This document shows, in pieces, positions 12,212 through 18,690 of a DNA stretch of 41,642 bases. Both the position numbers and the translations under genes were made by a program. How positions within the stretch are numbered: position 1 is the first letter of the stretch; each line of letters begins with the position of its first letter. The stretch comes from Egibacteraceae bacterium (GTDB lineage Bacteria; Actinomycetota; Nitriliruptoria; Euzebyales; Egibacteraceae). The notes beneath the pieces were generated by a model. It had not been told where the DNA came from and ran no database searches. It saw nothing but the letters and a program-made list of their open reading frames with translations. The stretch lies in the NCBI GenBank assembly GCA_040905805.1, contig JBBDQS010000051.1, forward strand, positions 1 through 41,642. Direction: 5' to 3'.

Positions 12212-13375
12212 ATGACCGCTGACCCCTCGGCTCCGGCCCCCCCCGACACCACCGGGGGGCGGGGCGATCCGCGTCCCCTGGTCCGAGCCGGTCGCGTGGC
12301 CTGGGCGGCGGTGGGTGTGCTGGTGCTGCTCGTCGCCGCCGGGGTGGTCGTCGGACAGCTGTCCCTGGTGGTCATCCCCCTGGTGCTCGCCCTGTTCCCC
12401 GCGGCGCTGCTCGCACCCGCCGCCCGTCTGCTCAAGCGCCTGGGCGCGCCCCCGGCGCTTGCCGCCCTCGTCACCATCCTCGGGGCGCTGCTGGTCCTGG
12501 GCGCGGTGGTCGCGCTGCTCGTCCCCACCGTGGCCGCCGAGCTGCCCGCCCTCACCGAGTCGGCCCGTGCAGGCGTCGACGACCTGCTCCGAGCCGCGCC
12601 CTTCGAGGTCAGCGGCATCGGGGACGTCGTCGACGCCGCCGGTGAGCAGCTGGGTGAGACCGGCAATGTGGCCGACACGGCGGTCCAGACGGCCACGGCC
12701 GTCGTCCACGGGGTCGTGGGGCTCCTGTTCGGCCTGGTCGCCCTCTTCTTCTACCTGAAGGACGGGGAGCGGATCGCGGCAGCCATCGGCGACCTCCTCC
12801 CCGACCACACCCGGGTCCACGCGGCGGCAATCAGCCGGCGGGTGTGGACCACCCTGGGCCGGTACTTCCGCGGCCAGCTGCTCGTCGCCGCGGTGGACGC
12901 CGTGCTGATCGGTCTGGGCCTGCTGCTCCTCGGCATCCCGCTCGCGGTGCCGCTGGCGGTGCTGATCTTCTTCGGCGGGCTCTTCCCGATCGTGGGTGCC
13001 GTGACCAGCGGCGTGGTGGCGGTACTCGTCGCGCTCGCCGACGCCGGCCTCGCCACCGCCCTGATCGTGCTGGGCCTCATCGTGGCCGTGCAGCAGCTGG
13101 AGAGCAACGTCCTCGAACCGGTGGTCCTCGGCAAGACGCTGGCCCTGCATCCCCTGATGGTGCTCCTGGCGATCACCGCCGGGGCGGTCACCCTCGGCGT
13201 CCTGGGGGCGTTCCTCGCCGTGCCCGTCGCGGGGAGCGTCGCACGGGTGGTGGACTACCTCCGCGGCCGCGACGGGGAGGACGGGGAGGACGGGGAGGAC
13301 GGGGAGGACGGGGAGGACGGGGAGGACGGGGACGGGGAGGACGCGCCGGTCTCGGCGATGGCCAGCAGCTCGTAG
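12212..13375 (+). CDS. AI-2E family transporter (PerM/YdiK-like permease)
   Basis: A 387-residue polytopic membrane protein. Two N-terminal helices (about residues 30-75), another near 85-110, an extracytoplasmic segment (about 110-165), then a helix GLLFGLVALFFYLKDGER and the paired C-terminal helices with the family motifs FFGGLFPIVGAVTSG and QQLESNVLEPVVLGKTLALHP. These mark the AI-2E exporter superfamily (UPF0118). Members include putative autoinducer-2 exporters and Na+/H+ antiporters, so substrate is unknown. The ATG at 12212 follows GAGGAAGG and is far better than the in-frame upstream codon. The last 35 residues are a low-complexity Asp-Gly-Glu tail encoded by a 9-bp tandem repeat; the gene overlaps the convergent sucrase/ferredoxin-like gene by 121 bp across that repeat. 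Confidence 0.92.
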   Translation: MTADPSAPAPPDTTGGRGDPRPLVRAGRVAWAAVGVLVLLVAAGVVVGQLSLVVIPLVLALFPAALLAPAARLLKRLGAPPALAALVTILGALLVLGAVVALLVPTVAAELPALTESARAGVDDLLRAAPFEVSGIGDVVDAAGEQLGETGNVADTAVQTATAVVHGVVGLLFGLVALFFYLKDGERIAAAIGDLLPDHTRVHAAAISRRVWTTLGRYFRGQLLVAAVDAVLIGLGLLLLGIPLAVPLAVLIFFGGLFPIVGAVTSGVVAVLVALADAGLATALIVLGLIVAVQQLESNVLEPVVLGKTLALHPLMVLLAITAGAVTLGVLGAFLAVPVAGSVARVVDYLRGRDGEDGEDGEDGEDGEDGEDGDGEDAPVSAMASSS

Positions 13376-14235
13376 CGGGGCGGGCGGGCGGGCCCCCCCG
13401 CCTGGCAGGTCAGCGGTCGCTCTGCCGGGTCACGCGCGACCCGCATGTCGACGGCGAAGCCGGACGCGTCCGGGCCGCCGAACGTGATGCGAAACGCGTC
13501 CCCGGCCAGGCGGCGCCGCTCGCGGTAGGTGAGGTCCGTGACGTGGTGGAGGTCGCACGCCACCCGCAGGGCGTGCTCGGCGGCCTGGACGACGAAGGGG
13601 TGGCAGGACCGGCCGCGGTAGTGAGGCAGGTCGAGCAGACCCCGGTCGTACAGCGTGGCGATCCGCGGGCCGTCGGCGGCCGCCACGTGGCCGTAGTACA
13701 GCCCGTGGGGCATGCACACGAGGTTGCCCGCGAACCGGTCCCCGCCGATGTGGGAGCACTCCCACGTCTGCGTGGCGCGCGCTGCGGCCATCGCCTTGAC
13801 CAGGGGCTGCCCGAACTCCGCGCAGCACGCGTCGTGCCGGCCGTTGGTGCAGACCAGGTGCAGCGGCTCGTGGACCGGGGCGCCACCGACCGCTGCGCTG
13901 CGACCGAGCGCCGCCCAGTCCACGTCGAGCAGCTCCGCGACATCGTCGACCACCAGCTCCTCGACCAGCGCACGGTCGCTGCGCACGACGAAGCACCGCC
14001 GGCGGCCCGACGCACCGCCACCGGGGCGCCTGATGAGGATCAGCCTGGCATTGACCTGCTCGGCCACCGATCCGAGCTCGGCGGCCACCGCCGCCGGCAG
14101 CCGGCTCTCCAGGATCGCGTCCCGGCCCCAGGGCCCGGACTGCTCGAGGAGGATCCATCGCCGCACCAGGGAGGCGGTGCCGGCCAGGGGCTCTGCACGG
14201 GCCCGCGCCTCCGCGGCGCAGCGGTACCGCGTCAC
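13255..14235 (-). CDS. sucrase/ferredoxin-like family protein
   Basis: A 326-residue member of the sucrase/ferredoxin-like family, which has thioredoxin-like ferredoxin folds expected to bind a [2Fe-2S] cluster. Cysteine motifs stand where expected: LVCTNGRHDACCAEFG at about 128-143 and WECSHIGGDRFAGNLVCMPHG at about 157-177; PRIATLYDRG and LDLPHYRGRSCHPF follow. The GTG start overlaps the stop of the JmjC gene by 4 bases (GTGA), indicating translational coupling. Homology ends near RYELLAIAETG; the remaining 28 residues are a Ser-Pro-Ser tail translated from the 9-bp repeat that also encodes the tail of the convergent transporter, as if the original stop had been replaced by repeat sequence. 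It could supply electrons to a neighbouring oxygenase (inference). Confidence 0.87.
   Translation of the reverse strand: MTRYRCAAEARARAEPLAGTASLVRRWILLEQSGPWGRDAILESRLPAAVAAELGSVAEQVNARLILIRRPGGGASGRRRCFVVRSDRALVEELVVDDVAELLDVDWAALGRSAAVGGAPVHEPLHLVCTNGRHDACCAEFGQPLVKAMAAARATQTWECSHIGGDRFAGNLVCMPHGLYYGHVAAADGPRIATLYDRGLLDLPHYRGRSCHPFVVQAAEHALRVACDLHHVTDLTYRERRRLAGDAFRITFGGPDASGFAVDMRVARDPAERPLTCQAGGPARPPRYELLAIAETGASSPSPSSPSSPSSPSSPSSPSSPSRPRR
13271..13342. repeat. 9-bp tandem repeat (GACGGGGAG) in the overlap of two convergent genes
   Basis: Six perfect copies of GACGGGGAG fill 13271-13324; then comes GACGGG, one more full copy and GAC. The plus strand reads it as repeated Asp-Gly-Glu at the end of the AI-2E-family permease; the minus strand reads it as repeated Ser-Pro-Ser at the end of the sucrase/ferredoxin-like protein. 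Both genes lack any other sequence after their homologous regions, so the array probably grew by slippage at the point where they meet. Confidence 0.95.
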
Positions 14236-15383
14236 GACTCGATCATGAGCAGCGCCTCGCGGACCAGACGGGTGACCAGCACCCGGCGGCCCTCCTCGTC
14301 GAGGTGCCCGCCGAGGTCGCCCACGGCGAAGCGGTCCTGAGCCGCCACCCAGGCGACCGCCGGCGCGACCCGGCCGGGCAGGCGCACCGTGCGGTCGGCC
14401 AGCACCAGGGCCACGCCGTCGCCACGCTCCTCGACGCGGCACCACGACCCTGCCCGTCGGGTCACCACGGTCGCGTCGTCCACGGCATCGAGCGCCAGCA
14501 CCTGGTGCAGCTGGCCGGTGAGCGATGCCGGCCGCGACGACCAGAACCCGTCCGTCGCCGCGCGGGCGGCTTCGGCGACGTCCAGTGCCTCCACGCGTTT
14601 GGCGACCGCGCCCAACCGGTCGGCCAGGTCCCCGACCAGCGCGGCCGGGTCGTGGGCGAACCCGGGAGGCAGGCTGCCGTGGCCGGTGTCGTCAAGCGCC
14701 TCGGCGATCGCCGCATCCACGGCGCCCCGCAGCACCTGTTCCCAGGTCACCATCCGCACCCCGATGGTGACGTGCACGGAGGGGCGGTCGGTGGTGCGCG
14801 CCGCGTGACGGACACCCTGGGGCACGTACAAGCACTCCCCGGCTTCCAGGGACACATCCAGCTCGGCCGCGTCGGCGTCGGTGTACGTCACCCACTGCTT
14901 GCGCCCGACGGTCTGCAGGGCGAAGACGTCGTGGGCGTCGGCGTGGATGCGCAGGCCGGCGGCCACCGGCGGGGTCACGTAGGCGTTGGCCTGGACCGGA
15001 TGGGTGAGCACGCGCTCGAGGTCCCGGCAGAACGCCGCGAGCGGAGGCCAGGAACGCTGCAGGCCCTGCAGGACGATGGTGGCACCCTCGGCGAAGTGCC
15101 CGAAGACCTGGCCGGGGTCGGCCAGGTCGGAGACGGGCCGGGAGCCGATGCGGGCCCGTCGGGTGTAGGAGCCGACCGGCAGCGGCTCGCCATCGCGCAC
15201 CAGCCGGAAGGCCGGTGCGCGCAACCCGGAGGCCGTGACGAGGCGGTCCACGTCGTCCAGGGACAGCAGGTCGGCGTAGCCCTCGGGGCACCGGTGATGG
15301 TGCGGCTGCCGCCCCCACCGCGTGCCGAGGAAGGCCTCGACGTCGCCCACGCAGCGGGCGAGCGCGTCGGGGCGTGCGGGCAC
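14232..15383 (-). CDS. JmjC (cupin_4) 2-oxoglutarate/Fe(II) oxygenase
   Basis: A 383-residue protein with the ribosomal-oxygenase-like JmjC fold. The iron triad is intact: His147 and Asp149 in RIHADAHDVFALQ and a distal His193 in YVPQGVRHAARTT. GRKQW (160-164) follows the first two ligands as in other members, with Lys162 a possible 2-oxoglutarate contact. The C-terminal 170 residues are helical and then winged-helix-like, as in proteins that hydroxylate Arg or His of ribosomal proteins, or Asp/Asn in related branches. It starts at GTG 15383, only 14 bases after the stop of the acidic repeat peptide, and ends overlapping the next gene. That tight spacing suggests the peptide may be its substrate (inference). 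A plain ribosomal-protein hydroxylase is the alternative. Confidence 0.87.
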   Translation of the reverse strand: MPARPDALARCVGDVEAFLGTRWGRQPHHHRCPEGYADLLSLDDVDRLVTASGLRAPAFRLVRDGEPLPVGSYTRRARIGSRPVSDLADPGQVFGHFAEGATIVLQGLQRSWPPLAAFCRDLERVLTHPVQANAYVTPPVAAGLRIHADAHDVFALQTVGRKQWVTYTDADAAELDVSLEAGECLYVPQGVRHAARTTDRPSVHVTIGVRMVTWEQVLRGAVDAAIAEALDDTGHGSLPPGFAHDPAALVGDLADRLGAVAKRVEALDVAEAARAATDGFWSSRPASLTGQLHQVLALDAVDDATVVTRRAGSWCRVEERGDGVALVLADRTVRLPGRVAPAVAWVAAQDRFAVGDLGGHLDEEGRRVLVTRLVREALLMIES

Positions 15384-15397
15384 GGGAACGCCGGTCG

Positions 15398-15652
15398 TCA
15401 GGCGTCGGTCCCGTCGGCGTCGGCACCGTCGCTCGCGTCCGCGGCGTCCCCGTCACCCGAGTCCGCGGCGTCCCCGTCACCCGAGTCCGCGGCGTCCCCG
15501 TCACCCGAGTCGGTGCCGTCGGCGTCGGCGCCGTCGGCGTCGTCCTGGGCGACCGAGGCCGTCGTCGAGGCGGGCCAGACCGTCTCGATCTCGTCGTCGG
15601 TCAGGCTCATCGGCTCGTTGTCGGTGGGTGCCTGCGGGATCTGCGTGCTCAT
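15398..15652 (-). CDS. Asp/Ser/Gly-rich repeat peptide, candidate RiPP-type precursor
   Basis: An 84-residue peptide with a strong ribosome-binding site (AGGAG, 7-base spacer) before ATG 15652. Residues 1-36 form a leader-like part with ordinary composition (MSTQIPQAPTDNEP, then MSLTDDEIETVWPASTT). Residues 37-84 contain almost only Asp, Gly, Ala, Ser and Thr, including three identical DSGDGDAA units encoded by perfect 24-bp repeats. It has no signal peptide, Cys, Lys or Arg. It lies between a decayed ATP-grasp gene and a JmjC oxygenase that starts 14 bases after its stop. The leader-plus-repetitive-core layout beside an oxygenase resembles a ribosomally made, modified peptide, but I know no matching family; a plain acidic cytosolic protein remains possible. 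Confidence 0.7.
   Translation of the reverse strand: MSTQIPQAPTDNEPMSLTDDEIETVWPASTTASVAQDDADGADADGTDSGDGDAADSGDGDAADSGDGDAADASDGADADGTDA
15437..15508. repeat. three perfect 24-bp tandem repeats inside the acidic peptide gene
   Basis: The unit GTCCGCGGCGTCCCCGTCAC+CCGA is present at 15437-15460, 15461-15484 and 15485-15508 without a single difference. On the minus strand each unit encodes eight residues (Ser-Gly-Asp-Gly-Asp-Ala-Ala-Asp in one phase). Identical copies imply recent expansion or ongoing homogenisation, and the copy number may vary among strains. Confidence 0.97.
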
Positions 15653-15737
15653 GGCAAGGCTCCTGGGTCCACGGGTGCGTGCGGGCTGCGCTCGGTCGCG
15701 ACGCTATCGCCGCGCCTCGGGGGAGGCAAGGACGACG

Positions 15738-16612
15738 TCACTCGAACGCGAACCCCAGCTCGTCGACGCACTGGTCGTAGCGGGCGTGCAGCTGCTCCTG
15801 GTCGCTCGCCCCGATGTACACCTCGGCGAGCTTGTAGCTGTAGCTGTCCTGGTCGTGCAGCTCCGAGAGCCGGTCCCCGGGCTCGACGACCAGCTTGATC
15901 GTGGTCCCCCCGACGCGCTCCTCGAGGTCGCGGATCTCCTCCTCGGTGGGCACCCGCGCCACGACGCCGTCCTCACGGAAGACGCGCAGGAACCACTTCG
16001 CCGCACACCCGTACGGCCCTTGCCGCCGGGGCGCCCGCGGCGGCTGGCCCAGGGCGAGGTCCAGCATCAGGGCGTGGTTGGCCAGGCCGTCGACGTCCTG
16101 CAGCAGCGGTGCGTGGGACTGCGAGTGCCGAGGGTTGACCTCCAGGACCGTGACCTGCTCGTCGGTCCAGAAGAACTCGACGTTGAACGTCGAGTGGTCG
16201 AGGTCGACCCGGCGATCTCCGGGGGCAGGTCTGCGACCTGGTCCATGACGTACTCGAACGGCTTGCCGACGCGGCCGATCCCCTCGCGGAGCTCCTCGGC
16301 GGCTCGCTTCAAATCCTGCGCGTCGGTCACCTCGATCGCCAGCTCGGAGGAGAACGCCTTGACCGGCCTGATCCAGTAGGGATAGGACAGGTCGATGGCG
16401 CCCAGGTCGTCGTCGTCGAACGGGTCGACGGCGGTGAACCGCGGGTACTCGTCGATCACCTTGCTCTGCTCGGCCAGCGGGATCTCCTCCCCGTGCTGGA
16501 GCTCCTCGTACCTGAAGAGCTGGTGGAACGCGTACCGGTCCGCATCCGGCAGCGCCTGCAGGGTCTCCAGGTTGAGCTGGTCGAGACCGAGCACGAACAC
16601 GTTCTTGGGCAC
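15738..16612 (-). pseudogene. ATP-grasp family protein, frameshifted and internally shortened
   Basis: The first part (ATG 16612 to about 16210) reads MPKNVFVLGLDQLNLETLQA ... IDEYPRF ... YPYWIRPVKAFSSELAIEV ... GRVGKPFEYVMDQV. The second part, in another frame, reads DLDHSTFNVEFFW ... VTVLEVNPRHSQSHA ... LAAKWFLR-like CAAKWFLRVFRE and ends DELGFAFE at 15738. The parts join if one G is added to the GGG run at 16208-16210. EVNPRHSQSHA is the metal/ATP-binding end of an ATP-grasp carboxylate-amine ligase. Even rejoined, the product is about 291 residues, against roughly 400 as I remember the actinobacterial family. Two segments seem absent, after GEEIPLAEQ and at PPEIAG, the latter including most of the ATP lid. 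I judge it inactive. It leads the operon that continues with the acidic peptide and the JmjC gene. Confidence 0.75.
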
Positions 16613-18457: not shown

Positions 18458-18579
18458 GGAAGTGGGCGCGTGGCCAGGCCACCTCCCTGGGCGCGTCGCC
18501 AGGCCAGCGCACCACCCCGGAAGTGGGCGCGTGGCCAGGCCACCTGCCCGGGCGCGTCGCCGGGCCAGCGCACCACCCT
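18458..18579. repeat. 61-bp tandem repeat, two copies, with internal palindromes
   Basis: Copies at 18458-18518 and 18519-18579 differ at only four or so positions, and a partial third copy starts at 18580 (GGAAGGTGACC). Each has the near-perfect palindrome GTGGCCAGGCCAC (18470-18482 and 18531-18543), and the second half of each unit is a diverged version of the first (GCGTGGCCAGGCCAC versus GCGTCGCCAGGCCAGCGC), so the array derives from an about 30-bp hairpin unit. It fills most of the 288-base gap between the small Cys-rich gene and the NUDIX-like gene. It could act as an extragenic palindromic element or transcript-processing site (inference). Confidence 0.9.
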
Positions 18580-18690
18580 GGAAGGTGACCGCCTCGCCGT
18601 TGGCCGCCACCCGCCGCCCCTCGCTCCGCTGCGTCATACCGGGCGCAGGGTATCGTCCCGGGACGGAACGCGGTGTGGAAGGAACACAGG

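Follow-up and report, generated by a model that had tools for sequence, protein, structure and literature searches.

We analysed a 41,642-nucleotide stretch of DNA from an Egibacteraceae bacterium (phylum Actinomycetota; assembly GCA_040905805.1, contig JBBDQS010000051.1, positions 1 to 41,642 of the forward strand; hereafter, the window), and describe in it a compact minus-strand locus made up of a frameshifted ATP-grasp gene followed by genes for an 84-residue peptide rich in Asp, Gly, Ala, and Thr, a JmjC oxygenase, and a Suc_Fer-like protein. The association of an Asp-repeat peptide with the JmjC gene recurs in about 180 actinobacterial genomes. We propose, with a probability of roughly 0.6, that the locus is a RiPP (ribosomally synthesized and post-translationally modified peptide)-like cassette of Actinomycetota, in which the JmjC protein performs leader-guided, iterative oxidation of core aspartates with help from the Suc_Fer protein.

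The peptide gene (15398..15652, minus strand) has an AGGAG ribosome-binding site about 8 nt ahead of its ATG, and an orthologue lies upstream of the JmjC gene's close relatives in almost every case. Its product resembles a precursor composed of a leader and an Asp-rich repeat core: the leader motif LTDDEIETV, common to several families, occupies residues 17-25 (15578..15604, minus strand), and residues 37-84 form a repetitive core (15401..15544, minus strand) specified by a 24-bp tandem repeat that encodes DSGDGDAA units. The peptide, whose sequence includes MSTQIPQAPTDNEPMSLTDDEIETVWPAST and DADGTDSGDGDAADSGDGDAAD, matches no family significantly among Pfam and NCBIfam models. Fourteen bases past its stop codon, a GTG opens the gene for a 383-residue JmjC/ROX-type 2-oxoglutarate (2OG) oxygenase with a C-terminal winged-helix domain (14232..15383, minus strand; PF08007, E=2e-18). 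The iron-binding triad H147-x-D149...H204 is invariant in an alignment of 28 orthologues, and the AlphaFold2 model (pLDDT 90.8) finds its best PDB fold matches in NO66, MINA53, and YcfD, so that both triad and fold are those of ROX-type PF08007 proteins.

The third gene of the trio (13255..14235, minus strand) overlaps the JmjC gene by four bases (GTGA) and encodes a 326-residue Suc_Fer-like protein with a thioredoxin-like [2Fe-2S] ferredoxin domain (PF06999, E=1.6e-19; AlphaFold2 pLDDT 88.5). The domain's top structural matches are thioredoxin-like ferredoxins, including TLF/FeSI ferredoxins at a weak E value of about 0.04 with a probability of 0.99-1.00. The trio had originally been predicted with an intact HxD...H triad and a four-base overlap, and both the coordinates and the Pfam matches agree with that description. 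C129, C137, C138, and H162 are invariant in the Suc_Fer proteins of these loci, which share with Apd1/Aim32-type proteins the PF06999 family, the thioredoxin-like ferredoxin domain, and the conserved Cys pair and first His. Apd1 uses a second His ligand in the motif HxGGH. At the corresponding position in the locus proteins (HxGGD, residues 162-166; 13738-13752), 110 of the 111 proteins have Asp as residue 166 and the remaining one has Cys, whereas the paralogues encoded at other sites of the same genomes carry HxGGH, HxGGC, or HxGGD; the pattern suggests an altered cluster ligand in the locus-associated proteins. The Suc_Fer gene overlaps a convergent gene for an AI-2E family transporter (plus strand, ending at 13375) across a 9-bp repeat (GACGGGGAG, 13271-13343, about 8 copies), which gives the Suc_Fer protein a tail of SPS repeats (pLDDT<50 there) and the transporter one of EDG repeats.

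Co-occurrence of the peptide and oxygenase genes

A JmjC orthologue is present in 36 of the 61 related genomes searched, and the JmjC/Suc_Fer pair recurs. A breadth scan in which each GTDB species was represented by one genome found 351 JmjC relatives; the 80 best, all of which were read, come from Nitriliruptoria-type metagenome-assembled genomes, Acidimicrobiia, Nocardioides, Aeromicrobium, and Nostocoides. JmjC matches occur in 58 of 396 genomes of a phylum-wide sample, and in 134 of 395 genomes of another actinobacterial class when distant JmjC proteins are also counted. At almost every locus, a peptide of 50-130 residues is encoded directly upstream of the JmjC gene, with the leader motif followed by Asp-rich repeats.

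We tallied this arrangement over distinct JmjC proteins binned by E value. Among relatives with E<1e-70, an Asp-rich open reading frame (ORF) lies directly upstream in 184 of 187 by a fixed criterion and in about 182 by eye, two of the passing ORFs (L295 and L308) looking spurious. Within this set, the peptide accompanies 120 of the 122 proteins with E<1e-100 and 64 of the 65 proteins between 1e-100 and 1e-70 (62 by eye). Of the two exceptions in the first bin, one is a contig edge and the other a stretch of N. Beyond 1e-70, 0 of 11 JmjC proteins have such a peptide upstream. Using 655 other genes in the same loci as controls, an ORF of at least 20% Asp ends just upstream of 104 of 109 close JmjC relatives versus none of the controls; at a looser threshold of 12% Asp, the counts are 106 of 109 versus 20 of 655. 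In a phylogenetic tree, the peptide-bearing JmjC proteins form a group, with the trait changing only three times. The original prediction held that JmjC homologues consistently lacking a neighbouring Asp-rich peptide would speak against it; close homologues nearly always have one.

Across 63 loci, the only recurrent neighbours are the peptide, JmjC, and Suc_Fer genes, with no protease, transporter, or regulator conserved near the trio. Some Nocardioides loci have genes resembling histidine/imidazole catabolism nearby; these look like synteny within the lineage, and we do not count them as part of the system. A search of the upstream regions of 56 loci for regulatory palindromes gave nothing clearly above shuffled sequences, and only a strong ribosome-binding site stood out. 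We found no virus-encoded copies, and plasmid homologues are limited to distant cupin proteins, with at most about 35% identity among the matches listed.

Leader, core, and the oxygenase's C-terminal domain

The precursors share the leader motif L-x-D-[DE]-[DE]-[IM]-x-T, and with start codons set by rule, their leaders are under purifying selection (pN/pS 0.149/0.405 = 0.37, a descriptive value from 644 overlapping pairs). The cores, 40-104 residues long, diverge in sequence yet remain Asp-repetitive, and their repeat number varies freely. In the branch closest to the window's protein, cores are built from DADGT, DGDAT, and DTT units and from DADGTD/DGDATD ladders, and 1,864 of 2,019 intervals between aspartates (92%) span one or two residues. 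Cores of the distant branch consist of (ADGG)n and EGPADGGxxGTPGVHDGGADGG units, in which 88% of aspartates precede Gly and Thr/Ser fall to a few per cent; rare core types include DADGQDAGPGPDTGPRDSD, GTYGPRD, and TEDDENLDAPGEHSQDTGDE. Cores with a motif-called leader contain 1,759 Asp codons versus 43 Glu codons. Because Asp so far exceeds Glu although GAC and GAG differ by only one base, aspartate itself, and not negative charge alone, appears to be selected. A conserved leader joined to a diverging core is the signature of a RiPP precursor, and the locus presents it: a short gene beside a tailoring enzyme, with a conserved leader and a variable core.

Several individual loci illustrate the range of these cores. 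At L288 and L292, the precursors upstream of JmjC are nearly pure (GGAD)n repeats. The related JmjC loci L166 and L290 instead encode an acidic peptide that has no repeats and ends in GPT[IV]EPGA; they lack both a Suc_Fer gene and a recognisable leader motif, and may represent a third type. The JmjC proteins of L078 (Nostocoides japonicum) and L077 are close, but their cores are wholly different (DADGQDAGPGPDTGPRDSD versus DADGTD), and in L078 Suc_Fer is lost alongside this apparent core replacement. L078 is also the only locus where, a few kb beyond the downstream end of the cassette (14363-15853 in that locus), we saw a Fur/Zur-like regulator and a metal ABC substrate-binding-like protein, both assigned by eye.

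The oxygenase's C-terminal domain is a candidate reader of the leader. Among 58 divergent loci with similar catalytic-domain scores, loss of the leader motif accompanies divergence of this domain: the presence of the motif and the recognisability of the domain agree in 52 (35 + 17; Fisher 5e-9), and the six disagreeing loci look like errors of motif or start calling. This covariation supports, short of establishing, a role for the C-terminal domain in leader recognition.

A candidate leader-guided oxidation cassette

We propose that the first gene of the trio encodes a short precursor, whose acidic leader motif is followed by a long core in which Asp-Gly-Ala-Thr/Ser units repeat in tandem. The JmjC protein would bind the leader, with its C-terminal winged-helix domain as the probable contact, and would oxidise the core iteratively with Fe(II), O2, and 2-oxoglutarate, most likely at the beta-carbon of aspartate. 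The Suc_Fer [2Fe-2S] protein would probably provide electrons, either to keep the oxygenase iron ferrous or for a second redox step. The product would be a repetitive polyanion, perhaps rich in beta-hydroxy-aspartate, for which a metal-binding role is plausible but speculative. This proposal builds on the gene identities and order, their near-constant co-occurrence, the conserved leader and divergent core, and the intact triad and fold. We consider it highly probable that the peptide is a dedicated JmjC substrate; if it is, aspartate hydroxylation is the reaction we would expect with fair confidence, and electron supply by the Suc_Fer protein is about an even bet. The original prediction had named the peptide core as the oxygenase's substrate, with Asp beta-hydroxylation as an example: the near-constant pairing supports the peptide's part in it and the conservation of aspartate fits the choice of residue, while the chemistry is what we infer from sequence.

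Several observations weigh against this proposal. In some divergent precursors, such as MSEQNPEGPADGG, there is hardly any leader, and in one sub-branch the leader is down to a few residues. The C-terminal domain of the JmjC protein gives no significant match to PqqD/RRE profiles, and its correlation with the leader motif amounts to only about three events on the tree. The nearest solved relatives of the oxygenase hydroxylate His or Arg, not Asp. No clustered leader protease or exporter is conserved across the 63 loci, leaving leader removal and export unexplained, so the product may stay intracellular. Fe(II)/2OG oxygenases do not strictly need a ferredoxin, and about 20 loci keep the peptide and JmjC genes without Suc_Fer. 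RRE-type leader-binding domains are not universal in RiPPs, and a clustered protease or exporter is common but not obligatory. As for the ferredoxin-like partner of the original prediction, Suc_Fer does follow JmjC as a near-constant neighbour in most loci; since it is missing from those 20 or so, it is probably auxiliary. Loss of Suc_Fer is not tied to core type, as Suc_Fer-less loci carry both main core types.

The peptide could instead be a substrate for a different reaction; for example, the enzyme might oxidise Gly, Thr/Ser, or Ala, desaturate or cross-link the peptide, or cleave it through an oxidised intermediate. Gly, Ala, and Thr/Ser are also plentiful in the cores, the Asp-Gly pairing dominates the second branch, and 2OG oxygenases have diverse outcomes; SmaO/SmaX of a graspetide cluster take Asp through hydroxy-Asp to aminomalonate (cited in PMC13097080). 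Yet every abundant core type shares Asp and Gly, Asp outnumbers Glu by about 40 to 1, and Thr/Ser are scarce in the ADGG branch, and we regard a different reaction as unlikely. We see a still smaller chance that the peptide is no substrate but a disordered, acidic partner of JmjC and Suc_Fer: a metallochaperone, an iron buffer, or a competitive regulator. Both JmjC and Suc_Fer are iron proteins, repeats rich in Asp could serve as ligands of Fe(II) or Ca(II) without being modified, and the free variation in repeat number and the lack of a conserved protease or transporter would suit such a role; but a selected leader motif with diverging cores is hard to square with a simple buffer, in which Glu should replace Asp, and peptide and JmjC are kept together in loci without Suc_Fer. 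It is very improbable that the JmjC enzyme simply modifies a ribosomal protein, as ordinary ribosomal oxygenases do, and that synteny carries an unrelated peptide gene along with it: the enzyme's nearest folds are indeed NO66, MINA53, and YcfD, but the peptide tracks JmjC over many families and genomic settings where nothing else nearby is conserved, and is absent beside more distant PF08007 proteins. Finally, tandem-repeat, GC-rich DNA with many overlapping ORFs could yield a spurious low-complexity ORF, but the contrast with control genes at the stricter threshold, the leader pN/pS, the strong ribosome-binding sites before the ATG, and the recurrence of frame and leader motif across families lead us to dismiss this explanation.

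Known systems, novelty, and flanking sequence

JmjC enzymes are already known in RiPP biosynthesis: BipG hydroxylates ornithine in biphenomycin (PMC12707348), and like the cassette proposed here, BipG and PbsQ are JmjC/cupin oxygenases of RiPP clusters that hydroxylate a precursor side chain (PMC12707348, PMC12257519). They differ in acting on ornithine in an FRF-type core, in clusters that contain an MNIO enzyme, a B12-radical SAM enzyme, an arginase, and a TldD protease and that lack both Asp repeats and a Suc_Fer partner. A 2025 update of RRE-Finder reported fusions of an RRE to JmjC (PF08007) and bacterial homologues in RiPP-like genomic contexts (PMC12710340), the PF08007 family and the RiPP-like setting being the points in common; the account is a single sentence on fish and algal proteins with RRE-like domains and on bacterial homologues at about 30% identity, which may include the present proteins, and no precursor family, Asp repeats, or Suc_Fer is described. 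Beta-hydroxy-aspartate is itself installed in ribosomal peptides, by the MNIO enzyme PesHI in nitrilobacillins (PMC13060819) and by SmaO/SmaX (cited in PMC13097080), although there the modification falls on a single or terminal Asp with no repeat ladder, and PesHI belongs to another enzyme family.

The ribosomal oxygenases NO66, MINA53, and YcfD/RoxA share the fold, HxD...H triad, and C-terminal winged helix of the locus protein. They are known to act on His or Arg of ribosomal proteins, and to our knowledge none has a cognate precursor peptide encoded beside its gene.

We found no description of Asp-repeat precursors, of a Suc_Fer partner, or of the gene trio in the open-licence literature, and within that literature the original claim that no described RiPP class has this combination holds, with the qualification that BipG and PbsQ precede it as JmjC RiPP hydroxylases. 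We regard the trio as a candidate new RiPP class, though not as categorically new, since RiPPs and RiPP JmjC hydroxylases already exist. The further idea that it represents an undescribed, widespread Actinomycetota class, in which a ROX-type JmjC and a [2Fe-2S] Suc_Fer protein make poly-(beta-hydroxy-aspartyl) peptides, perhaps as intracellular ribosomal metal ligands, we hold tentatively, at somewhat less than even odds. A large orphan branch of JmjC proteins gains a concrete, gene-encoded candidate substrate, and does so in bacteria already in culture, Nocardioides among them. If the proposal is true, the known RiPPs would gain a class marked by extreme repetition and densely modified aspartates, bacterial Suc_Fer-like proteins would acquire a function, and ribosomal oxygenases might prove to be linked in evolution to the enzymes of peptide natural products.

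The ATP-grasp gene upstream of the peptide, at first taken as part of the operon, drops out of the system. It is broken into two frames (16067-16612 and about 15738-16250) by a frameshift near 16205; the assembly may be at fault, or the gene may be a genuine pseudogene. An intact paralogue lies elsewhere in the same genome (G000:C114:56031-56504). No locus but the window's has an ATP-grasp gene beside the trio, and homologues turn up in genomes that lack the JmjC; we therefore reject it as a graspetide-type (omega-ester RiPP) partner. Farther along the window, positions 18458-18584 hold a direct repeat of 61 bp (about 2.1 copies, 93% matches).

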